This document shows, piece by piece, positions 2 through 39,696 of a stretch of 64,000 nt of DNA (positions within the stretch are counted from its first letter, which is position 1; every line of letters starts with the position of its first letter). A program made the translations under genes and the position numbers. The notes under the pieces are model-generated. The model saw only the letters and a list, made by a program, of their open reading frames with translations. It did no database searches and was not told the DNA's origin. The DNA comes from Nannochloropsis salina CCMP1776 (Eukaryota; Sar; Eustigmatophyceae; Eustigmatales; Monodopsidaceae), in the NCBI GenBank assembly GCA_004565275.1, contig SDOX01000145.1, forward strand, positions 131,071 through 195,070. The letters are read 5' to 3'.

Positions 2-2812
2 GACCCGCCTGCTGCATCCCTTTCCCACACAGCCAGCCACCACCCCCTTGCCTCCTTGGGCCCCTCCCTCCTCCCGCCGCCCCACTTGGTCATCGTCGTC
101 GACCACCCTCCCACAGCGCTCGCCTTGACCCGCCGCGCCTTGGAGGCGGGGCTTCGAGTCTCGGTGGCCCGCAATGCCTTCCACGTCTTGAGCGAGGTGA
201 TCGAGCGCGGGGAAACCTACTTCCACGGGCTGGTTCTTGAGGTAGACTCGCCCATTATGAGCGGGCTGGAGGCCGCCATGAAGTTCAGAGGGCTCCCCTC
301 CCCCCTGGTGGTGCTGGGAGAGGGGGAGAGAGGTGCGGAGCAAGGAGGGCCCGCGACCCAGACAGCTGGGGCGGAGCAAGGAAGGGAGGGAAGGCGGGGA
401 GGACTAGAAGGTAGGAAAGGGAGCATGCTCTCGGCGACAGCGAAGCTGATGATGGTGATGGTGGTGAATGGCAGCCGGCACGCGAACTACTCGGGCTTCG
501 AGGCGCACGCCCTGTCGGCGGGGGCGGATTATGTGGCACAGGAGTTCGAAGAGCTCTCCTTCGAGAATTTGAAGAAGCAGTTGGAGCGGAGGAGCGAGGT
601 TGGGATGAGGGAGGCCGCAGGGAGGGCAGTTGAGGATGTGGCACAGGGCGGGGAAGGGAGGGCGGGGGGCGAGGAGGGAGGGAGGAGGGGAAGAGGAAAG
701 GCTGCCAAGCCGAGCAGCGGGCTCAGGCAGGGTCTCCCCTTGGCCCGATTGCCGTCGTTCACATGGACGGGCGCCCTGCCTTTGTCGAGGGGGGAGTCAG
801 CCTCGCTCTCTCGATCCAGCAGTGAGACGATCAGGTCGGGCAGACCCGCCTGGAGCGCCGGGGAGACGTCTGCGATGGACTCAACCATCATGGGGCTCAG
901 CCCTTGGGAGGACCTCTCTGTTCCCCGCGGAGGTAGCCTCTTGCCCATGGCCCACTCCCATACGGCGGCTGCCCACGTGGCCCTGGCTGCTGGGGCCGAC
1001 GGGGGAGGGGGGGAAGGAGGGCCCGACGGAGGGGGGGGCGGATATGGGCCGGGACAGGCGAGTGGGGGTGGGGAGGTGGCGGCTCGGGAGCTCCGGCGGA
1101 AGGACAAGCGCGTCCGACGTGCCTGTATGTATTGCCACGGGAAGAAACTGTCGTGCTCCTTCCACAGGCCTTGCGACCGTTGCTACGCCTTGAATCAGAA
1201 CTGCGTGGAATACGTGCCAAAACAGCGGACTTTTGACTCCACGGTGAACATCTACTGCCCGCCCGCCCCAGGTCCTGCCGCCAGGGCGAAGAGCGAGGAT
1301 GGGTGGGGCGCGGAACAAGACGGGGTCTTCGGGAAGGAGAGGAAGGAGTCTTTGCCCTCTCGGACCAGTAGCCCCTCCCTCTCTACCTCCGGCAGCACCT
1401 ACGGGATCGCCCCGCCTCCGGCCTCTGCCAACGCGGCGAAAAGTGTGGGAGGCCCCCTCTTGTCCATGTCCTCGCATCCTTGGTCTCATGTGGGGGATAA
1501 CAGCGGGGTAGGAAGCGGGAGAAGTGGTGTCAGCGAGGCCGGGACTCTGGCAAACAGCAGCGGGAACCAGAGCAGCGGGTCGAAACGGAGGCGCAAGGGG
1601 GTCGAAGGGGGCCGTTTCCAGCGGGAAGAAAGCGTCGCGGGCGGCAGGAGGGGAAAGCAGGGCCAGGACGACAGAGAAAGCGGGACCGGCCTGGGAGCAA
1701 ACGAGACTGAGGAAGCAAGGGGGCGTATAGACCTGGTCATCTCGCCCCCCTCCTCCGCTTCCTCCGCCCCGTCCTGCCCGACCCCCCACCTCCTCTCCCT
1801 CTCCCCCCCCAGTGGCCTCATTCCAGCCGCCACCATGTTCCCTGCCTGTTCACCGCGCACCGCGGCGGCGGCGGTGGGGGCGGCGGCGGCGGGAGCGGCG
1901 GCGGCGGGAGCGGCTGGAGGATCTTGGAAATCGGAGGCATCGGACAAGATCCACCCTTCTTCCTCGTCCTCCACATTCAGATCCCCTCACCAAGCTCTCA
2001 CGGAGGGTCCCGGAGACGAAGAACGGATTGCTACTGTTTCCTACACCCCGCCCGCTGCTTACTACACTCCCTCCGCCGGCCACTCGGGGCGTCAGGCAGC
2101 GAGCGATCCCCCGCGAGGACGAGGGCGGGGCGGAGGAAGGGGTAGAGGGTGCGGGCGGCGGAGTGTCAGTCACCCGGAGACCCAGGGTAGCATCAGCACG
2201 AGCGGAAACGGCAGCTGTTTATACCCTCACGACCAGCAGCAGCAGCATATGGCAAACATGCAGCACTACCACACGGAGGGTCTAGGGCCACTGCAGCAGC
2301 AGCAGCAGCAGCAGCAGCAGTACTCCCACCAAGACGCACAGGGACCGCAGCAACCGGTGTACCCCCCCCCCCGGCAGCAACACCACAAGTACTATGCCCC
2401 ACGTCCCACTGCACACAGACCGCCCGACCGACCGGCTGAGCACGCCTCGTACCTCCAACAATACGCCTCTCCCCCGTACCCCTCAAGTTTCCCGCCACGC
2501 CCGCCGTCCCAAGGTCACGCTTTTCATGACAATGCCTACCGCCAGCAGACCTTTCCTGACCGGGAGGAGGTGCCACAGCTGTCGTCGCAGCAGCCCCATC
2601 ACTCCTACCTACCATCGGCCCATCCTGTTCCCGGAGGGGCACGTCTGGTGGGAACCGGGGATCATGGGGGGGGAAAGAGGGGGGGAGGGGAAGGAGAGCG
2701 GGAAGGAGGACACCCTGGGGGACGGGGTAAGCTGCACGCAGCCTCGCTGGAGACATGGGCTTCGTCGCCCCCCCCCGTCTACCAAGAGCACGCTTACGAT
2801 GGAGCTGTGTAG
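2..2812 (+). CDS. Pseudo-receiver / Zn(II)2Cys6 transcription factor, 5' partial
   Basis: Probable DNA-binding regulator. The frame is open to the left window edge and the first usable ATG lies inside the receiver fold, so the true start is upstream. Counting from codon 56, residues 11-80 and about 124-170 resemble a response-regulator receiver, split by a 40-residue Gly/Glu-rich insert that could be an unspliced intron. The phospho-acceptor position (before PIMSG) is Glu62 instead of Asp, the second acid of strand 1 is His17, and the conserved Lys is Gln, so it should not be phosphorylated normally. Residues 357-383 form a perfect CX2CX6CX5CX2CX6C zinc cluster, preceded by basic residues (KDKRVRR). 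The rest is low-complexity: an Ala/Gly tract from GCG repeats near 1860-1915 and ten glutamines near 2292-2321. Zn2Cys6 factors are known mainly from fungi and some stramenopiles; the target genes are unknown. Confidence 0.75.
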   Translation, partial: DPPAASLSHTASHHPLASLGPSLLPPPHLVIVVDHPPTALALTRRALEAGLRVSVARNAFHVLSEVIERGETYFHGLVLEVDSPIMSGLEAAMKFRGLPSPLVVLGEGERGAEQGGPATQTAGAEQGREGRRGGLEGRKGSMLSATAKLMMVMVVNGSRHANYSGFEAHALSAGADYVAQEFEELSFENLKKQLERRSEVGMREAAGRAVEDVAQGGEGRAGGEEGGRRGRGKAAKPSSGLRQGLPLARLPSFTWTGALPLSRGESASLSRSSSETIRSGRPAWSAGETSAMDSTIMGLSPWEDLSVPRGGSLLPMAHSHTAAAHVALAAGADGGGGEGGPDGGGGGYGPGQASGGGEVAARELRRKDKRVRRACMYCHGKKLSCSFHRPCDRCYALNQNCVEYVPKQRTFDSTVNIYCPPAPGPAARAKSEDGWGAEQDGVFGKERKESLPSRTSSPSLSTSGSTYGIAPPPASANAAKSVGGPLLSMSSHPWSHVGDNSGVGSGRSGVSEAGTLANSSGNQSSGSKRRRKGVEGGRFQREESVAGGRRGKQGQDDRESGTGLGANETEEARGRIDLVISPPSSASSAPSCPTPHLLSLSPPSGLIPAATMFPACSPRTAAAAVGAAAAGAAAAGAAGGSWKSEASDKIHPSSSSSTFRSPHQALTEGPGDEERIATVSYTPPAAYYTPSAGHSGRQAASDPPRGRGRGGGRGRGCGRRSVSHPETQGSISTSGNGSCLYPHDQQQQHMANMQHYHTEGLGPLQQQQQQQQQYSHQDAQGPQQPVYPPPRQQHHKYYAPRPTAHRPPDRPAEHASYLQQYASPPYPSSFPPRPPSQGHAFHDNAYRQQTFPDREEVPQLSSQQPHHSYLPSAHPVPGGARLVGTGDHGGGKRGGGEGEREGGHPGGRGKLHAASLETWASSPPPVYQEHAYDGAV
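2292..2321 (+). repeat. CAG trinucleotide tract encoding polyglutamine
   Basis: An uninterrupted run of CAG codons within the Zn2Cys6 regulator encodes about ten glutamines. Such a tract is prone to length change and is typical of activation-domain-like disordered regions. Confidence 0.8.
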
Positions 2813-3458: not shown

Positions 3459-5604
3459 TCAATCATCCCCCTCCCCCGATCCCTCCCCTCGCCCGTCATG
3501 CATCCCTGCCTCCAATACTGGCAACGGCTGGGTGCTGTCCAGGTACTTGTAGACGAGGACCCCGTGTTGCTTTTCCTCCTTCTTGAACTTGTTCTTGAGC
3601 TGCGCACGGTCCCGCCGCCCTGCGAACAGGAGAGAAGCCATGGTGGTAAAGTCGGTGCCGCACTGGCGCAAGGCCTGGTAGAAAAGGCGGGTCTCCGCGT
3701 CCGTCCACCGCGTAGCCCGGGTCCGACTCGTGAAACTGTTGTAGGTGGCCGCCTGCTGGGGGTCTTCGGTCACTTCCTCCATCGCGCCCTCCCCCCCGTC
3801 CTCCGGCCGAGCAACCACCTCCAGGGATTTCTGGTTGATGACGATCTGCCCGTCCACGAGCTCGACCCGGGGGCCCACCGCCACCACCACCGCAGCAGCC
3901 GGACCCTCTCCGCCCGCTCCTTCTCTTTGCCTGTCCATGGTATCCGAGGGGGCAGTACTCGGTCCTGAGGGTGGGGGGGCAGTACTCGGTCCTGAGGGTG
4001 GGGGGACGGTGGCACCGGCTCCTGAGCTTCTAGAGCCCGCCTTGGACGAGGAGGAAGCCGCGGGCAAAGGGAGGGGACTCACGGCGTCGGCCCCCACGTG
4101 CGTATCGCCCCGCCCCCCCTTCTTCCCCCCCCGTCTCCCCCTCCCTTCCTCTCCCTTCCCCCCCCCTCTCCCCCTCCCCCCCTCTCCCTTCCCCCGCCCT
4201 GCCTCTTCTGCCTCCCGACCCGATCTTGCGGGCCCCGCGTCCCGTGCCTTTTCTCGCCCTCCTTGTCGGGTACTAATACCAGACGTCTTTCCTACTGCCG
4301 CTGTCCTCCCTCTCCCCGCCACCGTCCCTTCTTCTCCCGCAGTCGCCGGGGCGTGTGACGCGCCCACCGCCTCGTCTTCACCCCCTGACATCCCCCCTCC
4401 CGCCTTCCCCTTCCCCTCCCTTTCTCGTCCGCCCCCCCCCTCCTCCACCCTCCCCTTCTTCTTTTTCTTCCCCTCGCCAGTCCCTGCCTTCCCCCCCCTC
4501 CCCCGGCCCCTGTCCCCAGCCGCTTCATCCCAGGCAAGGGGCTCCTGCGCGCCCGAAAAGCCTGCAGCAGACCCCGCAGGGATGTTGATCCTCCCGCTCT
4601 GGGGATGGAACCAGGGCTATCAGGGGCTGTGGCTAGACTCGACGAGAGCGTCGCCGAAGCGGCGGGCACGCCCTCCCCCCCTTCCTCCCCTCCCTCCTCT
4701 CCCTCGTCCACCCTGTCCGCCTCACTCCCCGTCGAGGTCGCCCGCCGTCTCTTAGCTGTCCCAGGCCCGCTCTCTTCCTCTTTCCGCCCTCCATCACCTC
4801 CGCCATCTTGAAGCTCCCTCCTCTTCTTGACTGCTCCAAGCCTCCCCCCGGGAGCCCCTCCCGCCCGCGCCACGCCGCCCTCCCTCCTCGCCATCCCCCC
4901 TCGTCCCCTCCCTGCGGTGTCTACAAGCCCCTCCCGCGTCCTATCCTCGCTCTTCGCATCTTCCCCCTTTCGCCCTCTCTTCCCTTTCCCTAAATTCAAA
5001 AGGGCTTGCAGCGTCCCCTCTTCGATGCTCCCTTCCTCCTCCTCCTCCCTCCCTCCCGTCAAAGGGGACAAAGGCCGGATTGCGGAGTCTATCGCACTAG
5101 GCCCGGGCCTAGAGCCCGTCAGGGACGGCCTAGTCTGCTTCTCTTTAACGGCCTTCTCCGGAGGGACAGCGGGGTGGCGCACTCGCTGCAAATGCTGGGT
5201 CGGAGGCTTTGGGGATGAAAGACCTTTTGTCCCCTTCGCATGCCCCGCCTTTGTCCCTTCCATCTTCTCGCCCTCGCCTTCCTTTGCACCCCTTCCTGTC
5301 ACATTGTCCTCGTCTTGTCCGGCCAGCGCCTCCTCTATTCCTTGCGCCTTCTCCCCCTCTGCCCCCTCCCCTTGCCCCGCCTTGCTCCTCCCCTCGCCTG
5401 CTTTGCACCCGTGTTCAGGCACCGCGGCCTCCTTTGTACCGTCTTGTTCCGCTTCCTTTCCCTCGTTTCCCCCTTCTTTCTCCTCCTCCTGTACGCGTGC
5501 TTCCCTTGCCTCTTTCACGTTGCCCGTGCGAGGCTGCGGACTAGCGCCCACAAGCCTTGAACGTGCCACTGGCCGAAATTTGGTCCCTCGACCCCCACCA
5601 CGCC
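3459..5604 (-). CDS. BDP1: TFIIIB subunit B'' (BDP1), frame-interrupted
   Basis: Subunit of TFIIIB, which recruits RNA polymerase III to tRNA and 5S genes. Three family hallmarks appear in order: an N-terminal GTKFRPVARSR motif (about 5560-5590) like the yeast GTRFAPKVRQR; DGQIVINQKSLEVV (about 3810-3855), matching the 'DGxxxIDEExxVVD' element; and the extended SANT domain (about 3560-3700) with RWTDAETRLFYQALRQCGTD and a KNKFKKEEK end. Between them is a long Gly/Glu/Arg-rich linker. The N-terminal part lies in one frame (stop at 4292) and the SANT part in another (open from at least 4448), so the frame changes around 4292-4450 next to G-runs such as the nine C at 4432-4440. An intron or an assembly indel would explain it. 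The start is not resolved: the frame's first codon is GTG at 5569, open back to a possible CAG acceptor at 5605, so a 5' exon is likely. Confidence 0.8.
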
Positions 5605-6448
5605 CTGCTCATCAGATGTTTAGATAGTATTAGTTACTTGTAGGGCCGCATGTTCCTACACATGTCCATCTGGCAAGGGCTATCAATGTCCTCCTCTCCC
5701 TTGTGGTTGTGTCCATATTGTGCTGAAACCATGTTTTTATATTTACCTTGAAGACGCTCCCCCGGCCGAACCAAGACAGCATGCTGGCTCATCTTGGGTG
5801 CGACCAATATATACCTGCGTGTACACAAAGATTGATGCATGTGAGGGCACATATCAAGCGAGGTAGACGCAAGGGAAAGAGGTTGCATGCGCGTCCCCTC
5901 CGCCAGATCTACGATTGCCGTCCATCACCACGACCTTCCGTTTCCTGGAAACAGCCAACAAGTCTCAAGACTCAGCCGGTACAATTATGAGGCTATAAAG
6001 CAAGAATATCGGGACGTATCTGTCCGTGGGTGTATGTTCGACGCGAGCGCCTTTGTCTGCACAATGCTCCAACCCGGCATGATACTTCTCTTCTCCCGCA
6101 CAGGGATTGTCTAAAAAAGGAAATATGGCCGGTCCAAGCAAAATCAAAGGGATATGTACAAGCAACTTTGGTGACAGTGAGTTAAAAAATGTGAGATGCG
6201 AGGCATGTGTGTGTGATTTGTTTTCATTTTGAACCGCCCGTCTGGTTCCTGCTGGCAGCACTCCATACTTCCCTTCCACTTTGTCTTTCTCTACAGAGGA
6301 TGTTAGCACGTTTCTTTTATGTCGTTGACCAATTGAGCCCTTCATCTCCCCCGTCCTCACTAGGTAATCCTCATACATGCTTCTTCAACCCTCCCTCCCA
6401 TCCTTTGTGTTAATTTCTTACAGTCTCCCTTAATACACCTTTCTTTCA
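5605..6448. other. Intergenic region between BDP1 and TBCA
   Basis: Likely contains the BDP1 5' exon and promoter and the 3' UTR of TBCA. A 137-codon minus-strand frame at 5965-6378 resembles no family and sits in the presumed TBCA 3' UTR. Confidence 0.5.
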
Positions 6449-14333: not shown

Positions 14334-16313
14334 TTACATAATTGTAATTCCATCCACCCCGCCCTCCTCGTCACGTTCTTGGGGCGAGTTGCACGGCCAG
14401 ACAGGCAGATATGTCACCAACGACCCTGACGGTGTGAGTTCCACCTGACTACCTCCCTCAACCCTTGCACTTACCTTCTCTCCCTCACATAAAAAAGCTT
14501 CTTCCTCCTGCCCTGTGCGCGACCGGTTGAACCGTGAAGCAGCAAGCCCCCAAAAAATATATTCAGCCACGTCCGTCTTTTTCACGTACACGCCCACGCC
14601 CACAATAACAATGAGAAGGAAGCACGCCCCTGCACCCAAAAGGACTCCTCGACGCCTTGCAGATGTCTGGTGGCTATGAGTGTCAGGTGTGTCTGACTCC
14701 AGAGACGAGGCTCCTTGAAGAGACTGGATGGACGCCATGGGGAGCAGATTGCCTTCGAAGGCCGTTTGGATTTCCACATCGCAAGCGAGTCCCTGATAAC
14801 CTCGAGCACACAGACACACCGCCTCTTCCTTTTCCCCTGCCATGCCCGACACCCCCTCACTACGTGGCGTACACACCCCTCGACGATGGCAAGCGTTCTC
14901 GGCGCCTCCAGGGCATTCGATGTCGCACCGGTGCCCCGTCCATCCCGGTCCACAGTTCCCATGAGCAGCCAAGCACGCGTCCCGCAGGTCCTCGTGGGGG
15001 GGACAAAAATGATACGTCAGGTTTGAACGTGTCCAATGAATGCCATCCAGAGTCGCCTCCACCTCCACGCTACTTCCCAGGGCATCCCCGCCGTCACCGT
15101 CCTCTCTGTCGTCACGTCCTTGCACGCCAGGCAACGCAGGTACGGCGCACATCAGGGAACGGGCCGAGATGAGGGTGGCAGGCACTACCGCCCCTGTCCT
15201 TTCGTCTCCGAACCTGCAAGCCATCTCCGGCGTTGCTACGAAGGAGGTGCTAGCGCTCAGAATGACATGCGTGCCCTCTTCTGCCGTGCCCGCCGGGGGC
15301 GTCAGCCGGTCCACTCCGTACGTGATGGCGGTGGAGCACGAAGTGAAGGAGCGGGTCTCGCAGCAATTTTCGCAATTGCACTTGTAAGCACAGGCAGAGT
15401 CGTAACAGCATCGACACAGGGGGCTGCAAGGGCACGCGTCGCACGTCCCGTACGGGCAATGTGCGGTGGACGAAGGCAGGCATCCACAGGCCTCTTTGTG
15501 GCAAAGTTGGCAATTGCAATCCCGACATTCGGTCTTGTACTCAAATGTCGACGTAATAGTACACACAGAGGGTCCGGGCACGGCTTTGCAGATCCGAAGA
15601 AGCTGGATCTTGATCAGGCTTTCATTCAGGGTAGGAAGCATCGTTTCAGCGGGAGTTGGAGCCCTTATCACGGTATCAAATGCATTCGACCCAAGATTAT
15701 TACACTCGTAGTCGAGTTCTACGCGAGACAGCGCGTTCCATATTTCATAGTCATTGTAGATCGCGTGTCGGGCGGGCAATGGCGCGTCTACTGTCAGCCA
15801 TTTGTCGGTAGCCCAGCCACTAGCCTGAGGAATAGGTATCCTCACTTTTACACCGCCTGACGTGGCTTTGAGAATAAGGCTTGAAGGTGTGCACGGCTCG
15901 CTTGTTGAAGAGGAGGAGATCCACGCGTCAAAACGAAGGGTAGCATGTGGCCCGAAAGAGACAAGACCCGTCTCTGCATCTCGCTCCAACAAGGGGATTA
16001 CATTTATGGTGTCCGATAACGTGACACTCGGCAAAGTGCGATTCTTAGCTGGTTTCGCTTCTGCTGCAAGAACCGGAAATCGTGTTTCGTCGAGGTGTAT
16101 CATCCGACAGACATGGCTGCTGCCGTCCGTAGAATGATAGGCATGGATGAAAGGACTCACGGCGGGTAAAATTACCAAATATAGTCGACCAAGTGCTCCA
16201 GCGCCTAAAAAATATTTTCGTGTGTGTATTGATCGCATCGGCTCTTCAAGGGAGGACAGTGCATTGGACGTGGAAAGGAATACGAGAAAAATACTTGAGT
16301 CATAATGGGCCAT
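14334..16313 (-). CDS. Type I membrane protein with Cys-rich, IPT/TIG-like and EGF-like domains
   Basis: Probable cell-surface or endomembrane protein. It is a single exon of 659 aa from ATG 16313, or 634 aa from ATG 16238, whose MRSIHTRK is followed by a better signal-peptide-like helix. In order: a beta-rich ectodomain; a very dense Cys-rich segment (about 15340-15570, more than 20 cysteines, many as CxC or CC); an IPT/TIG-like beta-sandwich (about 15010-15330, with CRFGDERTGAVVPATLIS and SVEVEATLDGIHWT); EGF-like modules (about 14720-15010, CGPGWTGHRC and CLCARGYQGLACD); one transmembrane helix (about 14582-14647); and a short acidic cytoplasmic tail. No kinase domain is present. Ligand and role are unknown. 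A 16-bp palindrome lies about 120 bases upstream of the start. Confidence 0.78.
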   Translation of the reverse strand: MAHYDSSIFLVFLSTSNALSSLEEPMRSIHTRKYFLGAGALGRLYLVILPAVSPFIHAYHSTDGSSHVCRMIHLDETRFPVLAAEAKPAKNRTLPSVTLSDTINVIPLLERDAETGLVSFGPHATLRFDAWISSSSTSEPCTPSSLILKATSGGVKVRIPIPQASGWATDKWLTVDAPLPARHAIYNDYEIWNALSRVELDYECNNLGSNAFDTVIRAPTPAETMLPTLNESLIKIQLLRICKAVPGPSVCTITSTFEYKTECRDCNCQLCHKEACGCLPSSTAHCPYGTCDACPCSPLCRCCYDSACAYKCNCENCCETRSFTSCSTAITYGVDRLTPPAGTAEEGTHVILSASTSFVATPEMACRFGDERTGAVVPATLISARSLMCAVPALPGVQGRDDREDGDGGDALGSSVEVEATLDGIHWTRSNLTYHFCPPHEDLRDACLAAHGNCGPGWTGHRCDIECPGGAENACHRRGVCTPRSEGVSGMAGEKEEAVCLCARGYQGLACDVEIQTAFEGNLLPMASIQSLQGASSLESDTPDTHSHQTSARRRGVLLGAGACFLLIVIVGVGVYVKKTDVAEYIFWGLAASRFNRSRTGQEEEAFLCEGEKVSARVEGGSQVELTPSGSLVTYLPVWPCNSPQERDEEGGVDGITIM

Positions 16314-16331
16314 GAACGAAGGAAATTTCAA

Positions 16332-16747
16332 CCGTTGTTGCTAGCAAAGAGCATATGAATGAGGGTCATATAGCTCAGAATATTTATCTGTATATGATTT
16401 CGCTGGATGAGGGATCAACACGAAAGACTCGCGACACGATCGTGTCGTGAGATCGTGTAGAGACGAAGGCCATCGACTGTATTTAACCTCCTGGCAATCA
16501 TGTTCCCTTTTGGTCCCCGTCAATGCTTCATTTATGAAGAATGATGCTCTCAATATTTATGGGTTTCCCGGCTGTACGGGCAACGAAAATATGGAAAGAA
16601 TGAGGTACTACGCATTAAATCATACTGATGTGTTCTTTTGTACATTTTTGACTGTATGTTGAAATCTTTCTTCTGGCGGCTGACCGGAAGAAGAGATATA
16701 CATCATGTCGACTTCTTGATGGTCCAGGTAGTATCAATGGTCTCATT
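16332..16747. other. Intergenic / promoter region of the surface-protein gene
   Basis: About 415 bases between the surface-protein start and the LEA2-like stop, AT-richer than the genes and carrying the palindrome at 16432-16447. Confidence 0.5.
16432..16447. promoter_or_regulatory. Perfect 16-bp palindrome, candidate operator
   Basis: CGACACGATCGTGTCG is its own reverse complement. It lies about 120 bases upstream of the surface-protein ATG, where a dimeric transcription factor could bind. It may also be chance. Confidence 0.4.
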
Positions 16748-17696
16748 TTATTTTGACCGAGCAAGACTGACTTTTTTGGTGCTATGACAGTCCTTGTGTG
16801 TTTTTTGATCGTCCCATGTGTAGCTGAGGATACATTCTAGCTCGGATGACAAACGGAAATCGCTTTTCAAAATTGTGGAGAATCCTAATACATGCCCCTT
16901 TACCAACAAAGTGGTGGCCCCTTGATTCATATTACGAAGAAAACTGGCTCCTATCGTTTAGGTCATGAAAAAAAGCATTATATATGAAAGGGATGATTTG
17001 AGCAGACATGCTTTTATCTAAGCAATAACAAATATACCAGTCTTATATCTTATTCTTCCCCACCCATGAAATACTCTTCAAGCCTACGTTATGAATCATA
17101 CTTACCAAGCATACTCCAGGGCGCATCGAAGACTGCATGCAGCTTACGCGTGGTTGTCTCGCCTCCAGGAATCACGCCACCCTCCAGCACACCTGTACCC
17201 ACCCGAGATTCAGGACTCGATGGGAAATAGAAGTCCAATTCAACAGGATCAAAGGCAATCGGATAATTTTTATTTTTATTAACAATTTCGAGATCAACGT
17301 CGGCATCTACTGAGACGGATTCCATGCCATTTATCTTGAGAGAATTAATCTCAGTTGTTGTTGCTCGGATCTCTGGGGCTGTGAGGTTGATTGAAGATCG
17401 ATCAGAAATGAGAAAGTTGCTTCATATACAATTGTACAATTTGGGAAAAACGACAACAGATGAGCATCGAGCACGCCAGGCAAGCGTTTTTCTATACCGC
17501 CATGTTGTAGCCTGAGTCCTCCCCTTTACTCATCCCCTTTTTTCCTTCGAACCCTTCACTTAAACTTACCCTTAGGATAGTAGACACCTACTAGAGATGC
17601 GATTACAATGATAGGCAATAGCACAGAAGCGATACCAATGATGAGGCACCGACGGGTGACTCCGCACAATTTGCTGTTGACAGAGAAAGGCCACAT
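16748..17696 (-). CDS. Membrane-anchored LEA2/NHL-like protein, three exons
   Basis: Exons 17570-17696, 17106-17378 and 16748-16950 total 603 nt (200 aa), with matching phases 1 and 1 and strong donors (GTAAGT type). Residues 17-41 form one transmembrane helix after a short basic N-terminus. The rest is a LEA14/WHy-type beta-sandwich, with VDADVDLEIVNKNKNYPIAF and the spaced Asn-rich strand typical of LEA2, then TGVLEGGVIPGGETTTRKL, and in exon 3 GATTLLVKGHVLGF. In plants, NDR1/HIN1-like and LEA2 proteins with this layout sit at the plasma membrane or ER and act in stress responses; the role here is inferred from fold only. The C-terminus is a short Lys-rich tail. Confidence 0.82.
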
Positions 17697-27269: not shown

Positions 27270-30200
27270 ATGAGCAGCTCTCGCTCCCGCCGCTCTAGGA
27301 CTGTGGCTCGCGGCAGGGCCGGGGCGGACCCTCAGACTGGACTCGAGGCTCTTGTAAGAAAGCAATTTTCCCTTCGTTTTCCGTATCGGGCCGGAAATTT
27401 GGAGAACTACCCTCGCTGTACGTCGGCCGACCATGGGACGGGAGGAACGGGAAATTGCGCCGCCAATCCGCACTGTGTGTACGGCCTGAAGGGGAAGAAA
27501 GAGGGGATCTGGTCGACGAGCAAGAGCCTCTTGGTCCAGTCGTTGGGAGAGGATCCTGCGATGCTGATTCGGGGATGGAAGCCTCCAGTGCGGTCGGTGT
27601 ACAAGGGAGGTACAGAAAGGGGGGGGAGGGCAGGGAAGACGGAGACAGGGAGGCAGTCGGGGGCCTCCATGGGAAGGAAGGGTTGTGGAGGGGGAGGAGG
27701 GGAGGCAGGGGCTGAGAAAGAGAGGGAAGAGAGGGGGGAAAATGGCAAAGGCGGGGGGACAAGGAAGCGGGCGCGGACGTCGGTGTCGGCGGAAGACGGG
27801 TCCACGGGAGGAGCCAAGAGCCTCGAGTGTGATGACCGGGCCGTCGGCGCAGAGCAAGCCGGTGCCGAGGGGATGGGGAGGGAAGGAAGAGAGCAGGTCC
27901 TGACAAAGGCGCAGGAGGCGGGAGGGCCGGCAGAGGCGTACTTGAAGACGCCGGTGGGCCTGCGGAACCTGGGGGCTACCTGCTACCTGAACGTGCTGCT
28001 GCAAGCCCTCTTCTTCAACCGGCGCTTCCGCCAGGCCGTGTACGAATTCCGACCCCCCTCAGGCCCCCGCCCCGGGGAGGAAGGGGGAAGAAAGGAACGG
28101 ATGGTCCTGATCCTCCAAGAGCTGCAGCGCCTCTTCGCCCACATGCAGCTGGGGATGGCCCGGGAGGGAGACCCTCGCGAGTTCGTCCGGCTTTTGCGAC
28201 TGGACCGGGGCCAGCAGCAAGACCCCCAGGAGTTCCGCCGTCTCTTCCTGGGCAAGATCGAGGAGTGCTTCGGCGCCCTCTCCCCCTCCTCCCCTCCCTC
28301 GTCCCCCTCCCCGGACCTGGCCTCGATGGTGCGGAGCCTGCACCGGGGTCGCCTCCTGTACCTGACCACCTGCCTGAGCTGCGGGACCGCCTCCCGCCGG
28401 GAGGGCCCCTTCGACGAGCTCGAACTCTCCCTCCTCCCTTCCCCGTCCTCCCCCGCCACCGTAGCCGCGGGCGTCGCCCGATACCTGGCCCCCGAGCGCC
28501 TGGAGGGGGAGAACCGCTACCTCTGCGGCCGGTGCGGGGAGAAGCGGGAGGCCGAGCGCCGGGTGATACTGACGGCCCTGCCCCCCCTGCTCACCGTGCA
28601 GCTCCTCCGCTACGTGTACGTGGGCGGGGAGAAGCGGAAGGTGAAACAGGTGGTGGCCCTCGACGAAACCCTGGACCTGGGACTGGTGGCTCGGGGAGGA
28701 GCGGACGGAGGGAGCGGCGGAGGGGGGGGCAGCAGCCTCGCCGGGGAGGCGGGCGCCCCAGGTACGTGTGGCTCTCTTTCCCTCCCCGCTCTGTCCCTCC
28801 TGCCTTCCTATCTGTCGAGCTCCACCCTCCTTCTCTGCGACGCTCTGGATGCCCTTCCCTTCACGAATCCCCTCCTACCTTTCGCTTCCTTCCTCCCTCC
28901 CTACCTCCAGGGGTGTACGATCTGGTGGGCGTCATGTTCCACAAGGGCGGCTCGGCTTCGCACGGTCATTACACGGCGGAATTCCGGGAGGTGTCGTCGG
29001 GGAGATGGTGGTACCTGGATGACACGGAGGTCCGGGAAGGCAGACATGCGCAGGTGTTGATGAGGAAGGAGGGCGGAAAGAAGGAAGGTGGGGAAGAGGT
29101 GTTGATGAGGAAGGAGGGCGGAAAGAAGGAAGGTGGGGAGAAGTTGCTGATGAGGAAGGAGGGCGGAAAGAAGGAAGGTGGGGAAGAGGTATTGATGAGG
29201 AAGGAGGGCGGAATGAAGGAAGGTGATGAAGAGGTGTCGATGAGGAAGGAGGGCGGAAAGATGGAAAGTGGGGAAGAGGGGCGAAAGAGAAGAAGGACCG
29301 AGGAGAATGACGGGGAGAGAAGCTCTGTGATCTCCTTGGTGTCTGATGAGGAGGGAGCGGAAGAAAGGGATGAGGAGAAGGAGGAGGAGGTACAGGACAG
29401 GGAGGAAGACGCAAAGAGAGAAGAGGAGAAGGAAAAAATCGCGAGAAGTGGAGGAGTGAAGAAGAGGGGGAGGCCAAGAAAAAAGAAGGAGAGGGAGGAA
29501 GAGGAAGAGGATGATCATGTGGAGGTTGACGGTGAGGAGGATGACGAGGAGGAGGACGGCAATGAGAAGTCGCGCGCCGGTGGAAGCTCCAGAAAGGGCC
29601 GAAGTGGGAGGGGGGAAGACGAGGGAGGCAAGGCGGGGGAGGAGGGGGGGCGGAAGAGGGGCTCTGCGGATGCCTACTGCCTCATCTACCTGCGGCGAGG
29701 GTACCCTGAGCCGACGGAGGCGGTGCTGGAGGGCCTGTTACCGGAGACGGTGCGAGAAGAGGTGCGGGAGGCGAACAGGCGGCTGCGGCAGATGCGGGAT
29801 CGATACAGGGAGCGCAAGGAGAGGTGGGAGGGGGAGGTGCGAGGACGAAAAGCCCTGTACGAGGCGCTTTTCGAAGGAGGGGGAGAGGGCGGGAGGGAGG
29901 GCGAGGGCGAGGGCGGCTCCCTGGGCCCGGTGTCGTGGGTGAGGGAGGGAGAGCCCTATTACTTCCTGCCGACGTCGTGGCTGCGGAGTTGGATACTAGG
30001 CGTGGACCGAGGGGAGGGCGGGGGCGAGGCAGGTAGGGAGGGGGAGGAGGAGAAAGGGCGGGAGGCAGGGGTGCCCCCCCCCGCCGCCTCCAGGCTGGGT
30101 CCTGCCGTGCCGGAGGGAAGGGAGGACGGCCCCCTCCTCTTCTCAGACCCGCCAGCCCTCCAGCCCTACTGCTGCCCCCACTCCCGTCCAGACGGCCTCT

Positions 30201-32821
30201 GGAAGCTGAGCCCGGCGGCGGTTCCTCAGCTCAAGGTCGTGCGTGGCCCTGTGTACGACAAGCTTCTGGCCTCCCTCCGGACCCCGCCTACCTACCATTT
30301 CGAAGGCAGGGGGGAGGGAGGGGCGGAGGAAGGGGGGTTTGGGTGTGGGGAGTGCGTGGCCAGGTTTGCGGAGGAGCAGGAGGAGCGGGTTCAGACGGCG
30401 AGGTTGCTGGATGAGGCCATGCGGACCCTGGGTGGGGGGGAGGGAGGGAAGGAGGGAAAGGAGGGGGAGGACGGCTACTTGATGTCGAAGAGGTGGGAGG
30501 CGCTGTTTAAGAAGGAATGGGAGCGAGCGGTCAAATTGCTGGGTGGGGGTGCGGCCAAGGGAGGAGGAGGGCTTGGGAGGGGAGGGGGGGGGGTGTCTGC
30601 GGAGGAGGCTTTGCGGCCGCTGATGGCACTGACGGAAAGGGAAGGGATGGGGGAGGAGACGGAGGAGGGGGGGCGAGAAGGAGGGGAGGGAGGGGGGCAA
30701 GGGGTGAAGGAGGGGAAGGGGGAGGGGCAAGAGATAGAGGAGGGGAAGGAGGAGGAGAGAGAGAGTAAAGGCGCGGGGGGACAGGAAGGAGGGAAGGAGA
30801 CCAACGGGGAGGAGGAGGAGCGGCAGGAGGAGGGAGAGAGGGAGGGCGGCATTGGGGCCCTAGCTCGGCAAGGCCTGGATCCCACCATCAACAGCCGCCT
30901 CCGCTGCCCCCACGGCAACCTCCTCCCCCACGCCCGCAAGTCGGCTCGTCTCCTTCCCCGCGCCGCCTGGTCCCTGTTCACCACGCTCTTCCCAGGCGCG
31001 ATTTCCTTTTCGGAAGGCACGCCCCCCTGCCCTCGGTGCCAGGAGAGCAAGCAGAGCCTTGCGGAGGTGAACATGATGAAGAAAGTGGCGCGAGACGCAG
31101 AGGTCAAGTGCAAGGAACTGCGGGAGCTCGCCCGGCGGAAGACGGCGTATCCGCCCGTGTTGCGGAGGCTGGTGGAAGGGGCGTGCCCGCTGGGAGGGAG
31201 GGGGAGGGAGGGGGAGGGGAAGTTCATGATAGTGGGTCGGGGTTGGCTGCGAGCCTGGCGGGAGTACGTGCGAGATTACAAGGAGAAGCCGAAACCGCTC
31301 GTGCCCGATAAAGAGCGAGGGGTGCGATGCGTGCACGGCCTCTTGAAGCTCCCCTTCTTCCTGACCGACCTGCTCAAGACGGGGGAAATGACAAAGGACG
31401 AGGGCGGGAGGGAGGGAGGGGAGGGAGGGGAGGAGGAGAGGGAGGGGGAAGAGGGGGAGGCGGATCTAGTCACGCCGGCAGAATGGGAGAGGCTCTTGGA
31501 AAGCTACGCGCCGGAAGAGCGACAGAAAGCGCAGGAGGCGACCGTGATCTTGCGAAGACAGGTGTGCGAGGTCGAGAGGGAAGGAGGAAGGGAGGGAGGG
31601 TGGGTGGTAGGGGCGACGTTTTCGCCACTCGTGTGCTCCGTTTGCCAGGCGGAAAGGGAAGCCGCGCGGGAGCGTGCCCGCATCACCTATCGGAACCAGC
31701 CACTGAAGGTGGTGGTGTTGAAGAACGGGGAGGAGCCGCCGGATGCGCCGTCCTCCCTCCCGCCCTCCCTCCCGCCCTCCGGTTCGACCTCGACGGGCAA
31801 CGGGGTGGCCGTGGGGAGAGGGGAGGGGGCGGTTCCTCGCACGGCGCTCCGCCGCACGCGCGGAAGCCGGGGCAGGGGCCGAAAAAAGGAGACAAAGGTG
31901 CTGGAGGGCGTGAGCAGCACGGACGACGTGCAGACTTTGAAGCTGCGGGTGTGGGAAGTGCTGTCGGCGGGGGAGGACGGGGTCAGCATCTCCTTGATCT
32001 GGAAGGGGAGGGAGCTCTCCGAGGGCAGGATGACACTGGGGGAGGCGGGCGTGAGGAAGGACGGGGTCGTGTACGCCCGCGTGGAGGCGGCAGAGGAGGG
32101 TTTGAGCGTGTGGGAGACGGCTGACTTGGAGGGGGGAGGGGGAGGGGGAGGGGGAGGCTGGGAGGACCCTGCGGCCTTCGGGGTGGTGGTAGAGGACGGA
32201 GAGGGGGCGAGGGGGGAGGAGTCGAAGGGTAGGAAGTCCTATAGGCCAGAGCAAGGCTTCCACGGGACGTTCTTAGCATCCTTGTCTCCTTCCCACCCTC
32301 CCGTCCGTAACCAGCTGCCTTCTGCTGCCTCGTCCTCCCCCCCCTCCTCCCCTTCCCCCCTCCCTCCTTTCTCTCCGGCGCCGACGCCGGGAGTGACGCT
32401 GGGCCACGAACGTGGCCTCGGTGACCGAAATGAGGGGCTGAGGGGAGGGGGAGGGCCGGAAGGCAACGGCAATGGCGCGAAAGCGAACGAAGGAATGGCA
32501 CTGCGTCCCGTGAAGGGAGGGGTGGAGGATGAGGAGGTTTCGGCGGGTGGAGTCGAGGAACAGGCGGTGTCGATTGGAAAGAGGGTGGCGGTGGCGATGG
32601 AGATGGACAGGAAGGAAGGAGGAACGGAAGAGATCAATGGGACGTCTCACGGCATGCTTCCTGATGGCGTGGAGGAGGAGGAGGAGGTGCAGGTGGAGGA
32701 GAGGGGAGGGGGGGGGTCTGGGTCAGAGGACGAGGAAGACTCGATGGGCACGCCGGTTTTACGCCTGAATGGCGATGCTTCAGCCCGTGCTGAAAAAGGC
32801 CTGACGGTCGAAGGCGTTTGA
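27270..32821 (+). CDS. USP48-like ubiquitin-specific protease, two exons
   Basis: Cysteine protease (peptidase C19) that removes ubiquitin; plant and animal relatives (UBP26/USP48) act in the nucleus, for example on H2B. Exons 27270-28761 and 28911-32821 give 5403 nt (1800 aa), phase 1. The N-terminus has a Cys-containing module (NCAANPHCVYGL). The Cys box GLRNLGATCYLN has catalytic Cys238, a CX2C...CX2C zinc pair follows (CLSC...CGRC), and the His box HGHYTAEF has catalytic His517, reached only after splicing. DUSP-like segments follow (YYFLPTSWLRSW; FMIVGRGWLRAWREYV), and a ubiquitin-like fold (DDVQTLKLRVWEVL; LIWKGRELSEGRMTL) lies near the C-terminus, as in USP48. Long Glu/Gly/Arg inserts make it well above the usual ~1000 aa. 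Start ATG 27270; a GTG at 27258 is in frame. Confidence 0.93.
29054..29278 (+). repeat. Five 45-bp tandem repeats encoding a 15-aa unit
   Basis: Within the USP48-like gene, the unit (V/L)LMRKEGGKKEGGEE occurs five times in tandem. The first three copies are nearly identical at DNA level and the last two diverge, suggesting recent expansion by slippage or unequal crossing-over. Confidence 0.9.
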
Positions 32822-34083
32822 GAGATTTGGGAGGAGGCAGAGAGCTCGCAAAGGAGGCGGCGTTCAAAGAGGAAGAGGGAGCACGCAGTGTGGGAGAGAA
32901 GGTGGCAGGGGCAGGCTTCGTGCAATGCACATAGTGACGGCTTGGTTTGCGGGTCCGTTCCCAGAGACTTTTGAATGGCGGCGGGAGGAGAGAAAAATGG
33001 AGGACAGGCAGGAGGAGAAAGAGGAGAAGAATATGAGAGGAGGAAGAGGTTAGGTGAAGGAGGGGAAGGAGGGGTGGGGGGTGGGGTCAGGATGCATGGG
33101 GAGGGAGGCAAGTCAATCCCTCGGGGTGAGAATTTGCACAAAAAGGCGATCGGTTTCTCGCCCTTGAGGCTGCTTTGACGAAGTCAAACAGGCGTCATAA
33201 TGTGGTTGAGTCAATAGGGACTTCTCAACGCCAAAGATGTAAAGCTTGCCGTCAGTGTAACAATAGGATTTTGGAGAGTAGGACATAGAAAAATGTATCA
33301 GCATATTAGGTTAAGCACCCAAAAATGAGAGAGAGAGGACGTGTGCGACGTACACGATATTTCTCTTTGTTCAAAAGTGTTCTTATACGCTCCACCCCCC
33401 CTTCCCTTGCACCTATCCAACTGCTGCCCGTGCTTATCGTCGACTCCAAGCCGCACAAATCTTCTATAAATTGGGATTGAGAAGGACTGATGAACAACGA
33501 CCACAAGCTTATCTCTCATTAACTCAAGATAATGGGGTATCAGAACGATGGACTATTGCATAAGGCGGATTGCATTCTCGCATCGTCCCTTCTACGTCGT
33601 TATTAAACCTGTGGGCAGCTTAAAGAGCACACGCACCCAATCCCAAGCAAATCAAGAGGATCGAGTCGTACTCCTAGTGCATCAAACCTGCAATTGGCAC
33701 GTAGGCGATGAAAAGCCCCCCAAAAAATTTGCAGCATGCCCTTTCGACCACGTGATGTGTCTGATTGTTCAGGAACAGTCCTTGACCATGGACTGGACGT
33801 CATTTGCTTGATGGCAAAAAGCAAAACGGAAATCATACATACAGGAAAGACTCATCCAAGTACTCCCCGACGCATCTTCACCCTTCCAAGCAGACCGATT
33901 GTCTGTACTCCTACAAGCTATGTGCACACTAATCCTACCGACTATTGAAACAAATCGCACCTCCCCTACCAGGCGGCGCTCTTCCTGTTTTTCCACCCAC
34001 GTATCTTTCGGCCGTCGCGTCCCCAGCTCCACGTGCTCCTTAAGCCCGTCCACCGCCAATCCCGCCGCCCAGTCTCGCTCCTC
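32822..34083. other. Convergent intergenic region USP48-like / chlH
   Basis: About 1.26 kb between two 3' ends. The left 350 bases are purine-rich; the remainder is nearer neutral composition. Short frames only, with no family match. Confidence 0.5.
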
Positions 34084-37000
34084 CTACCGTGATACCACGG
34101 GCGTTCTCTCCTCCTTCACATTTTTAATCGTCGAAGAAACCATCTTCACCTCCTCCCGCGGCGTTGGCGCTGACTTCTCTCCCCCGTCCTCCCTTAGCAC
34201 CTTGTTCCGCACCCCCTTGCCCCCGCTGAGCTCTATCTCATCCTCTGCCGCCGCATACATTTCCCGCAAGTGCTCCAGAACCTCTGGCGTTGCCTCCCAG
34301 TATCCCCTCCCATTCGCTTCCAACATCCTCTTTACCACGTTGCGCATGGCTTCGGGGTTGTTGTCCATCAGTTTTTGCGCCATCTTTTCGTCCAATACGT
34401 ACCTCTCCACCGCCCCGTCGTAGACCCATTGATCCTGAAAGCCAGCCGTGCTACTCCAGCCTACCAACGCCGTCATCCGCTGGCTGATCTCGTAGGCTCC
34501 TCCTGACCCTTGTGCTGCCATTGCTTCCGCCCACTTCGGGTTCAGAAGCTTGCTTCGATACTCCAACCGAAGGGTCGCCTCTAGCTCCTGCGGTTCCACG
34601 TCCTTGGTGAAGGCCTCCACGATTGACACTTTGACTACCCTTTTCTTCTTCGTTCCTCCCTTTCCTCCCTGCTGGTCAGAATCCGCCCGGCCCTGCGAGG
34701 GCGCTGGCTGGGCTCTGGGAGGGGCAACAGTGTTTTTACCTGACCGGTCAGGGGCGTTCGCGATATTTTCGGCGGCTTTCTTGAGCGCGCCTGAGAGCCA
34801 GGGAGACAAGGCAAAGAGGGAGAATTGCGGGGCATGAGTAAGAGAAAGAGTGCACGTCCCACCGTGAAATCAATGACGCATACGCTCGGATCTGACATTC
34901 CTACTCTTCGTATGCCACGTTCCTCCCTCCTTTCCTCCCTCCCTCCCGCCCACTCACCCGTGTTGGCGTAGTACTCCTGAATATCTGACAGGCCGTACTC
35001 GACCGAATCGATCTCCTGCACGATCCTCTCCGTGGTGCCCAGCAGCTCCTTCAAGACCCCGTCCCGTTTCACCCCGTTTTCCCTCTCCCCTTTTCCAAAA
35101 CTGTAGGCATTTCGACTCGCCCACGTCTCCCCCAGCTCCTCCTCCTGCTCCCACTCACCATTTCCAACCCGCTCGTTGACGAGGCTCCCGTAGTCGCCCG
35201 CGGGGTTGCTGAACAACCTGGCCGTCGGCCGATCCTCCCCTTGCTCTTTGAGTTTGTTCGCATGCTTCTTGATGTAGTTCATGTCCTCACTCTCGCCCTC
35301 CGCCGTCGCCGCACGTTCAAAGAGATCGTCCAGCAAGTCGACCACGTTGGAGAAAGAGTCCCGGAAAATTCCTGACAAGGACGCCAGCACATCGATTCGA
35401 GGCCGGCCAAGCTCGGCCAAAGGCACCAGTTCGTACCGCACCACCCGCCCCGTCGCCTCCTTCACGGGCCTCGCCCCCACCAGAGCCAGGAGGATCGCCA
35501 CGCTCTCCCCCCGGGTCTTGATCGCGTCCAGGCCCCAGAGCATCACTGCCACGGTCTCCGGGTAGCCGTCGCCGGCCGCTTGGTGCTGCGCCAGGATTTT
35601 TCGTACCGCCTCTTGGCCCCTTGCCCAAGCCCCCGGCGACGGCAGGCGGTAGGGATCGAGGGCATGGATGTTCCTCCCGGTTGGGAGCACGCCTAGACCG
35701 TCTCTTAGGAGGTCTCCCCCCACGCCCGGAAGCACGTACTCCCCGTTTAAGCCCTTGACGAGCGAGGCCAGTTCCTCTGTATTCTGCTCCAACATCTTCT
35801 TAATCTCGATCGCTTCCACTACCCTTTCCCTCAAGCCCTCCTTCACGTTCTCGCTCGGCGCTTCTGCCATATCCTCCATCGTTCCCCAGCCCACTGCAAC
35901 CTCCTCCTCCAGCCTCGCCTTGGCCTCTCGGTCCCCCCATGCCCGGCGCAGGCGCAAGGAGTAGAAGCGCAGCAAGTCGTTGGGTCGGTAGAGAGTCATG
36001 GCGTACTTCTCCTCGTTGGAGAGGCTGTTGTACCAGTGGGTGACCGGCCTCCCATCCCCCCTTTCCAGTTCGCGGAGCAGCGCCTCCGCCACGTCCTCGA
36101 CCCCGCATTCCCCGGGACCATACCCATGCGAGAGCTGCCCTCCCTCAACGGAGAGTGGGGCAGAAGGAGGGGAGGAGGGCGAGGAGGCGCGACACGAGGC
36201 GACCAGATCCGAAAGAAGACTGTTTGCAGAGGCCGCGGGCGGGGTGGGTAGCCCGGCGATGGCCTCAAGGAGTTGGGGGGGGAGGTCCTGGTCGAAGTAG
36301 GCGTCCAGGTATTGGTAGACCTGACGAGGCGAGGGCGTCTCCCCCAGCACGTGCAGCCCCTCCGAGAAGAGCCGTTGCTCCAGCACCCCCAGGTAGGAGG
36401 CAAGCTGGCCCATGTAGGCATTGAAGGCCGCAGGGTCCACCGACGCGGCTTCCTCTGGCGTCAGCCTCCCCTCCCCGCCCCTCCCTTCCGCACCGGGAGA
36501 CGAAGGCGAGGGCCAGGGGCAGTCCTCCCACAGACCCGTCCGCTCCAGCACGCCCACAATGACGGGACGCAGGCCTGCGTTGGCCTCGCTGTTCTCCCTG
36601 TACTCGCTCACAAGCTCGCGAAGCTGCGCGAGGTCTTTGTAGAGACCGGCGCGAGAGTAGGGGGGGACATTGTGGCTGATAATGGTGCCTATGGGGTGGG
36701 TGGGAACGTGGAAATGAGGTGGGAAAAAAAAATATATGCGCAGCCTTTCCGCACCTCCCCTCCCGCGCGCCCGCGTTCCGGCCGCACACGCCGTCCTTCC
36801 TCCAGCGGCGACCCATCACTTACCGTAGCCCCGGCGCTTGGCCAGGATGGACTCGGAGGGGTTGTTGCAGGCGTAGACGTACAGGTTGGGGATCTCCCCC
36901 ATCAAGCTGAGGGAGGGAGGGCGTGAGGGAAGGGGAGGAAGGGAGGGAGGGCAGGGTGAGATTGATGGCACGGTGGGAGTGCCGAGGCGGCCTGCGCGGA

Positions 37001-39696
37001 GGGAAGAGAAAGGTCTTACATATCGGGCCAGGTGGTGGCTGTGTTCCCCAGAGGGGAACCGGGGAGCCACTCCGCGGTCCCGTGCGTCCCGAAATGCACC
37101 ACGGCCTGCGCCTTGAAGCTGTTCCGCATCCAGTCATAGAAGGCCACGTACTGGGGGTGGGGGGTCAGGTCGCGCTCGAAGAGCAGACGCATGGGGTCTC
37201 CCTCGATGCCCAAGAGCGGTTGAATGCCGATCCAGACGTTCCCGAGCTGCACCCCGCCCACGACCAGCTCCCCTGCCTGGCTGGTGAAGAGCCCCACGTA
37301 TCCCTCCAGCTCCCCCCACATCTTTTCGACCCTTGCCGCGGTCCTCTCCCCGACCGCCGCCCGAAACTCGCCCGGAAGGATCCCTTCCGCAGTGATTCTC
37401 GCCTTGAGCATCTCCCCTCCCGCGGCCCCGTCCCCCCCGCCGAAGGTGCCCGCCTCGACCATGGCATGCATCTTCTTCGGGCCCCCCGCCACCACGGCCT
37501 CCTGATTGATGGCCGTGAGGATGGCGATCACGCTCTCCCCATCGATCTTCCGCGCGTCCAGCCCCGTGTCGTAGCCCTGAGAGAGGAAAAGCAGAGCCAG
37601 GTCAGACAGAACCAGGGAGGCATTACATGCAACGCGACCGCGGGTCAGCAGGGAGATAGGGACACGAAAAAGAGAGGTCAAGCAAGAAGAAGCTGTCCGT
37701 CAGTGCTTGGACCCACCCCTCTCACCTGCTCCTGCAAAGCGATCAAAAGCTTTTCCAGCGACCTAGGCACGTTCAACAGGGCCGCTGTCCCGATGGCCCC
37801 GACGTTGGGCGGGAAGCCGTAGCAGAGGATGGACACCTTTTTCTCCTTGGCTGGCGTGACGCGCAGTTGGTGCCAGCCCTGGATGCGGCGGGCGAGTTTC
37901 CGAGCCCGTTCAGGGACGATGGCGATCTTGTCCCCCACCAACCCCCCTAGGACCACCGTGTCCACCGCCCCGTCCAACTCGGGCAGGGAGTAGAGCACGG
38001 CGCTTTGCAGCCCCAACACCCCTCGTTCCCGCCAGCTGCTTAGATCCTGGAGCAAAAGCGGGGCGGCCACCAACAAGGGTACGTTCTTGGCGGCCAGGAG
38101 ACGCGTCGCCACGTCCACGCGTCGCCCTGCCTCCATGCTCCCCGCCGGGCCCCCGACCAAGGGGAAGCCGATCGTATTGATGACCGCATCCACCTCCACC
38201 GCCTCCGGGGAGAGGGAGTCGATGCGGCGTAAGCCCTGCCGACGTTCCTCCTGCTCGAAACGGGTGGTGAGCAGGTCGCGCACGACCGTGTGACCCTCCA
38301 CTCCGTTGATGAAGATCGGCACCGGGAGTAAGCCTTCCTTCTCCAAAATCCGGAGGAGCTGCGCAATGTAGACCTGGTTGGTGATCACGTGCTTCCGGTA
38401 AAGGAGAACTGCCACGCGGGGGGCTGTCTGCGGGGAGGAAACCATGGCGTCTTGAACCTGACCCAGGGCTGCCCGCTCCATGTACCACCTCAGATACTGC
38501 TTGGGGGACTGGAGGATCCGGGGAGTCAGCGGGTGGATAAGTCCCTGCGCGGGCGTCTCCTTCACCTGCAAGGGTTGTGCCAGCGTCCGGCTTGCCTCCG
38601 GGCCCAAGAGAGAAAATCGCCGCACGAGAAGGAGGAAGAGGGAGACGACGTTGGCCGCCCCCCCCTGGTTCCAGTAGGCGTACACCTCCAGCCAGGTCCG
38701 TATGTCCTGGGCCTTCCTCCCCGGGACCATGCGAAGAATTCGAGGGCCGATTTTCAGAAAGGAGAGGTAGCCCTTCAGCCGGTCTTCTTCCCGCTGGCTT
38801 CCGAACTTACTGAGCAAGGCTTTCACCACGGGGGGCGGGCCCGGGGCGGACGCGGCCTTCCCCCCCTCGCCACCCTCGGCAGAGGCGGCGGCTTTCATCG
38901 CGAAGCCCCCGACCTGGGTGAGGGACATGAGCTCCAAGGCCGACTCAAAGACAAGCCGGGTGGGGATGTGGCCCAGGCGAGTCCGGAGCCAATTCACTTG
39001 GTCGTAGTCGAAGATGAGGGAGCCGAAGAAGACATCCGCCCCCGCCAAGGCCGAAGCCACCACCTCGGGGCGCGAGGCGATGTCTCGATCCGTGAAGACG
39101 GTCACGCGGATGGAGGGGGAGATGTCCGCGAGCGTGGCAGCCGCTTGCTTGTAGAGCTGGACGTTGAAGGCTTCGAATCCGGCCACCAGGACGATGCGGG
39201 CGGTCGCGGGAGGGGGAGGGGCGGCAGGCTCGCCGCCCAGGCTCCTTGTCCGCTCCTCGTCCTCCACGGAGAGGCCCGGGGACCATTTGTCCCGCACCGA
39301 GCTATATAGCAACTCCAGCGGGTTTCTTTTCGAAGGGGAAGCAAGTCCTGCCTGTTGCTGGGGTTTAAACGCTTCGAGCAAGGCCTCCGGGACCTGCAAG
39401 TCCTGAGTCTTCTCCCGCTTCTGCTTCTTCTTGCGTGACTGTGCCTGCCGATGAGCGACGTCGCCTTCCGAAATAGCACGCAGTCTAGTGAGGGAGGACA
39501 CGTGCGGGAGAGGCCGCGCCTTCCTAAATGGAGGCCTTACCCTCTCACCCCCGTGCATCCACAAGGATGGACTCGGAGAGGTGAAGGCGACGACGCTGGG
39601 GGCCAGCAATTTCAGTAGAAACAAGGCAGAGCAAATCAAAGTGCACCTCTTGACTGCTCCATGAGATTTCGCCTTCCTCCTGGCTATCGGCTCCAT
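34084..39696 (-). CDS. chlH: Magnesium-chelatase subunit H, plastid-targeted, five exons
   Basis: Large porphyrin-binding subunit that inserts Mg2+ into protoporphyrin IX with ChlI and ChlD, the first committed step to chlorophyll. Exons 37726-39696, 37020-37576, 36824-36906, 34958-36688 and 34084-34790 total 5049 nt (1682 aa), phases 0, 2, 1 and 1, all GT-AG. ATG 39696 starts a basic signal peptide ending PSVVA, then FTSPSPSLW, a Phe-led transit peptide. Landmarks: the N-terminal DUF3479 region (ARIVLVAGFEAFNVQLYKQ), FPPNVGAIGTAALLNVPRSL, HFGTHGTAEWLPG, YACNNPSESILAKRRGYGT (spanning two junctions) and the C-terminal KLLNPKWAEAMAAQGSGGAY. Longer than typical ChlH (~1380 aa) through the N-terminal extension and low-complexity inserts. 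Confidence 0.96.

Follow-up and report, generated by a model that had tools for sequence, protein, structure and literature searches.

We examined a gene at the left edge of a 64,000-nt stretch of the Nannochloropsis salina CCMP1776 genome (GenBank assembly GCA_004565275.1, contig SDOX01000145.1, positions 131,071 to 195,070, forward strand), here called the window and numbered from its first letter. One open reading frame (ORF), at 2-2812, carries a receiver-like domain and a fungal-type Zn2Cys6 zinc cluster, and the two are joined by one continuous coding frame. A sequence-only reading of this DNA had described the protein as a degenerate receiver fused to a zinc-cluster factor. The features are listed below with residues numbered along the frame; active-site columns were assigned from an alignment (A4) of the window protein with 16 receivers.

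2-2812, forward strand: open frame of 936 codons plus stop, its 5′ end beyond the left window edge
74-319, forward strand: pseudo-receiver, first half (beta1-alpha1-beta2-alpha2-beta3-alpha3, perhaps beta4), from Pfam, our own profile and the coding signature
101-106, forward strand: Asp34 (first acid, kept) and His35 (second-acid column), from alignment A4
239-241, forward strand: Glu80 at the phospho-acceptor Asp column, from alignment A4
290-487, forward strand: low-complexity insert inside the receiver; best excision places it at 290-421, the alignment-guided model at 332-487
428-610, forward strand: tentative second half of the receiver (alpha4-beta5-alpha5), from the same-frame coding signature and the alignment-guided model
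539-541, forward strand: Gln180 at the Lys column, from alignment A4, within the tentative second half
611-1117, forward strand: low-complexity linker, Gly/Ala/Ser/Arg-rich, from composition
1094-1120, forward strand: basic stretch ahead of the zinc cluster, possible nuclear localisation signal, read from the translation (KRVR at residue 369)
1118-1228, forward strand: Zn(2)-Cys(6) binuclear cluster, residues 373-409 (PF00172, E 9.6e-06)
1124-1204, forward strand: six-Cys core, residues 375-401 (C-x2-C-x6-C-x5-C-x2-C-x6-C)
1583-1597, forward strand: KRRRK at residue 528, possible second nuclear localisation signal, from the sequence
2222-2809, forward strand: Pro/Gln/His-rich tail with a Gln run, residues 741-936, from composition

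No stop-free run of at least 900 codons arose in 1000 order-1 or 1000 order-2 Markov simulations of the stretch, the longest runs being 578 and 704 codons, respectively. By a coding score whose codon statistics were trained on eight Pfam-supported coding stretches within the window, the ORF frame outscored the other two forward frames in 27 of 29 overlapping 210-nt segments; the two others start at 1982 and 2522. A measure confined to synonymous codons was positive over both receiver halves and the zinc cluster, weak over the linker, and about zero or negative over the insert, 1901-2240 and the tail, although two of the eight training stretches likewise do not stand out by it. The true N-terminus lies outside the window, the first in-frame Met being residue 86, within the receiver-like domain. 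Just upstream of that domain a pyrimidine-rich tract ending in CACACAG (18-36) is, by eye, a candidate 3′ splice site, which would explain the missing start codon.

The weak coding signal of the linker, the further in-frame Met codons at residues 202, 292, 297 and 316, and the position of the 5′ end outside the window would suit two genes or a mis-joined frame, with receiver and zinc cluster on different transcripts. We regard this as very unlikely: the run of 936 codons is longer than any simulated, and the ORF frame was top in all six segments starting at 542-992, even if some margins were small.

The zinc cluster scores 26.1 bits against Zn_clus (PF00172) in the whole protein and 31.4 bits in a 77-residue fragment, where the curated cut-off is 21, and the perfect six-Cys cluster seen in the sequence-only reading is upheld. 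The core cysteines (residues 375, 378, 385, 391, 394 and 401) obey the family spacing CysX2CysX6CysX5-16CysX2CysX6-8Cys as worded in an account of algal factors (PMC4827209), and the motif appeared in none of 100,000 shuffles of the protein. The closest solved chains to the cluster belong to Pho7 (6e33, E 0.0016; 6o19, E 0.002) and GAL4 (1d66, E 0.018). The three families that Pfam lists for the whole protein at E up to 10 include neither a fungal middle homology domain nor PAS or CCT. The fungal middle homology domain is common among Zn2Cys6 factors and is not obligatory. The C-terminal tail, which contains a GCA repeat at 2293-2320, has a composition suggestive of an activation domain. A second zinc cluster was considered at 15512 on the minus strand, the sole other match to the six-Cys pattern in six frames, and was rejected; its spacing context is poor, and its host frame (14337-16340) has no Pfam family.

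The first half of the receiver-like domain is well supported. Response_reg (PF00072) matches nt 74-319 with E 0.0031 (18.1 bits) and nt 74-610 with E 0.0099 (16.5 bits), and is the sole Pfam family on nt 2-760 (E 0.022, 15.4 bits). Against our own profile of 49 non-redundant receiver domains the first half scores 12.1 bits and the whole domain 10.4 bits, and in neither case did any of 20,000 full shuffles score as high; 20,000 shuffles confined to 10-residue blocks likewise never matched 10.4 bits. A PDB sequence search aligned the first half with response regulators or receiver-bearing kinases in six of the seven chains listed (E 0.28-1, none significant). The coding signature is strong over this half, in the same frame as the ORF.

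Beyond it the domain is interrupted by the low-complexity insert, of which 290-428 is not coding-like on the synonymous codon score. From one receiver half to the other, 138 in-frame GT/GC..AG pairs were scored; 283-423 (17.1 bits) ranks highest of those that start with a GT donor, and no convincing pyrimidine tract is visible by eye at any of the 138; an unrecognised intron is not favoured, since the acceptor contexts are purine-rich. With the insert omitted, Response_reg reaches 19.6 and 22.4 bits (best E 0.00015), and removal of 44 residues of insert takes the own-profile score to 20.2 bits, a level reached by none of 300 full shuffles. The putative second half has AGADYVAQEF where receivers read GADDYxxKPF, and the candidate beta-4 strand is SPLVVLG in the alignment-guided model or KLMMVMVVN by best excision. 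This half of the receiver fold is tentative.

Structure prediction was run with and without an alignment. The alignment-free AlphaFold2 model (predicted local distance difference test, pLDDT, 42; predicted template modelling score, pTM, 0.31) has the order strand-helix-strand-helix-strand-helix-strand followed by two helices, which is that of a receiver, at low confidence. Foldseek returned 1214 PDB matches to it at E up to 10, the best with E 0.013 and none at or below 0.001; among the best 50 of these we judged 44 to be receivers or pseudo-receivers, one unclear (4dad) and five other folds, with eight of the 44 (four KaiA, two 3grc and two 6oec entries) being structures that we take to be of this class. 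The model guided by an alignment of 16 bacterial and viral-contig receivers (pLDDT 69.6, pTM 0.65) shows the full (beta-alpha)5 order; its first 80 residues have block means of 81-96, and residues 87-138 form a disordered insert. It has 323 PDB matches at E 0.001 or below, and all 50 listed look like receivers or receiver-holding complexes; the model is partly circular and not independent evidence, because it was built on receiver sequences. The CheY-like fold is good for the first half; the full (beta-alpha)5 appears only in the receiver-guided model.

Several results weigh against reading a receiver into this protein. Every Response_reg score falls below the curated cut-off of 30.2 bits, whether the insert is kept or left out, and the family is absent from the Pfam listing of the whole 936-residue protein (E up to 10); NCBIfam gave nothing, and PHROGs nothing for the receiver. 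In a six-frame scan with our profile (315 frames scored) the ORF ranked second, at 6.1 bits versus 7.1 for an 82-residue frame at 17267-17512 on the plus strand. The second half alone scores 1.5 bits, matched by 801 of 20,000 shuffles, and when the first half was kept and the later part shuffled, 40 of 1000 controls reached the best excised score (top 27.6), so the gain from excision is mostly unspecific. There was no confirmed relative in genome_contigs (whole protein, 27 pattern matches) or viral_contigs (18 pattern matches for the zinc-cluster stretch and four for the receiver stretch), collections of prokaryotes and viruses in which a single-protein query detects close relatives only and which give no evidence of absence. 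As to the 82-residue frame, a second receiver there was rejected, as Pfam finds no family in it.

These sub-threshold scores, the weak second half, the large inserts and the poor confidence of the single-sequence model could all be expected if the likeness were accidental or the residue of a decayed Rossmann-like fold, and the protein a plain zinc-cluster factor whose N-terminus is low in complexity. That explanation is improbable in our view: it does not sit well with the failure of 20,000 shuffles to equal either the domain or its first half, with the prevalence of receivers among the structures listed as matching the alignment-free model, or with the strong coding signal of both halves. The proposed fusion of a degenerate receiver to a Zn2Cys6 finger accordingly stands for the single frame, the zinc cluster and the first half of the receiver, and is weak for the second half.

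The active site departs from the canonical receiver residue set. In the alignment with 16 receivers Glu80 occupies the phospho-acceptor column and His35 that of the second acid, both as first read from the sequence. The third substitution of that reading, Gln for the conserved Lys, was dropped as a firm claim, since shuffled controls for the second half were too often as good; Gln180 does fall in the Lys column and likely replaces it. In the Thr column, different alignments place Gly, Ala or Asn. In CheY the Mg2+ ion is held by the second acid and the acceptor Asp. With His35 and Glu80 in the places of these two, phosphotransfer is not expected.

Glu80 could instead imitate phospho-Asp, leaving the receiver permanently active and control to the amount or location of the factor. 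Replacement of the acceptor Asp is a trait shared with aspartate-less receivers (ALRs) and pseudo-receivers (PsRs), and Glu, found here in the acceptor column, is reported as the commonest residue at that position in ALRs and as partly activating many response regulators, with mimicry of the phosphate perhaps achieved through contact with the conserved Thr and Lys (PMC12632262). The proposed contacts, however, appear to be lost in our protein: Lys seems replaced by Gln and Thr by one of Gly, Ala and Asn, and His stands at the second-acid position. With the metal site lost, and the Thr and Lys contacts of Glu80 probably lost as well, a Glu-locked "on" state is unlikely. Of the two roles earlier suggested for the receiver, an "on-like" lock or a protein-interaction module, the second fits best, and the first is weakened by these changed Thr and Lys columns and the changed beta-1 acid.

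A further role, as a ligand or redox sensor whose pseudo-receiver pocket binds a small molecule or a metal (His35 being a possible ligand) and gates the zinc cluster, has precedents in ligand-binding pseudo-receivers such as JadR1 and RedZ (PMC12632262), and the pseudo-receivers of KaiA and CikA are among the structural matches listed for the alignment-free model. We think it quite unlikely.

The reading that we favour, with a probability of roughly 0.5, is a nuclear transcription factor of the pseudo-response-regulator kind. Its Zn2Cys6 cluster would bind DNA and hold the protein there, and the N-terminal pseudo-receiver, its phosphotransfer residues lost, would offer a docking surface for a co-repressor, a co-activator or a dimer partner, recruited independently of Asp phosphorylation. 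The disordered linker and the Pro/Gln-rich tail may give reach and transcriptional output. The DNA binding, the nuclear location and the partner are what we infer from this domain arrangement, as is the second half of the fold, and regulation might run in either direction.

This arrangement recalls several known systems. Like the plant pseudo-response regulators (PRRs; TOC1/PRR family), the protein has an N-terminal receiver-like domain without the acceptor Asp, a long unstructured linker and a DNA-binding part; unlike them it carries a Zn2Cys6 cluster in mid-protein, with no CCT by Pfam (E up to 10), whereas the DNA-binding part of the PRRs is C-terminal. In TOC1, the closest working model for our protein, the repressor activity is reported to reside in the PRR domain and to require the DNA-binding CCT domain (PMC6378743). 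A survey of ALRs reports them from eukaryotes, algae among them, and describes an enrichment of CCT and Myb outputs (PMC4395418); our protein appears to differ from those surveyed in its output, as the effector-domain section of that paper has no zinc cluster and the word "zinc" does not occur in its main text. Fungal Skn7/SrrA-type regulators similarly combine a receiver with a eukaryotic DNA-binding domain in one protein (PMC12941744).

On the zinc-cluster side, the protein shares its Zn2Cys6 cluster with the fungal activators Pho7, GAL4 and PUT3, and aligns to Pho7 and GAL4 chains, but unlike such activators has no fungal middle homology domain by Pfam. Fungal-type Zn2Cys6 factors have been reported from haptophytes, N. 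gaditana and P. tricornutum (PMC4827209), and in a table for N. oceanica the first column of the Zn-clus row reads 9 (PMC3499364). These algal factors, named Zn-clus, fungal TRF or ZnCys, have the same DNA-binding domain as ours, and a receiver domain goes unmentioned in the accessible text of the reports. In Nannochloropsis gaditana, lowering of ZnCys is reported to have doubled lipid productivity (PMC10859422).

We met no description of a receiver paired with Zn2Cys6 in the searchable literature, a scope that leaves aside subscription papers, supplements and domain databases such as InterPro, and the first impression that no described family has this pair is borne out to that extent. Papers that name both domains place them, in their accessible text, in separate proteins or contexts. 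Receivers in eukaryotes are coupled to a small number of outputs, and the zinc-cluster factors of organisms other than fungi are poorly understood. The N. salina gene, one gene as yet, may represent a novel design of gene switch in which the customary phosphate signal plays no part: a pseudo-response regulator whose type of output domain we did not find described. It is also conceivable, if on the doubtful side, that it belongs to a class of pseudo-response regulators restricted to a lineage of photosynthetic eukaryotes, pairing an Asp-less receiver with Zn2Cys6 in parallel to the plant PRR-CCT proteins and with a comparable function, such as light, clock or nutrient regulation. If true, Asp-less receivers would have been adopted as phosphate-free regulatory modules more than once, and the gene would be a candidate regulator in an alga for which zinc-cluster factors may be important.

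The gene content of the window, including the H subunit of magnesium chelatase, is that of a photosynthetic eukaryote. Two large pieces of the latter gene lie on the minus strand at 34638-36815 and 37681-39978 (CobN-Mg_chel, E 4.6e-124 and 2.1e-55; DUF3479), and at least one further exon is expected, because part of the profile is missing between them. No rRNA, other Rfam family or tRNA was found within the 64 kb. A trigger factor gene and a SURF6-like gene are also present. Convergent on the 2-2812 gene is a minus-strand frame at 3462-4616 with Myb_DNA-bind_7 (E 3.2e-20), presumably as in the TFIIIB subunit BDP1; its opposite strand forms a long pyrimidine/purine-biased tract, and the region of this gene contains a perfect tandem pair of a 27-nt unit (3948-4005, 2.1 copies, 100% matches). 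Strand composition is skewed at 4001-6000 (GC skew -0.34, AT skew -0.31) and at 28001-34000 (GC skew +0.21 to +0.30). An open frame of 1299 codons at 55416-59312 on the minus strand matches nothing in Pfam at E up to 0.001, and another of 1661 codons, at 27836-32818 on the plus strand, has a single ubiquitin hydrolase match over only 62 residues (UCH, E 3.3e-09), most of the frame being without a family.
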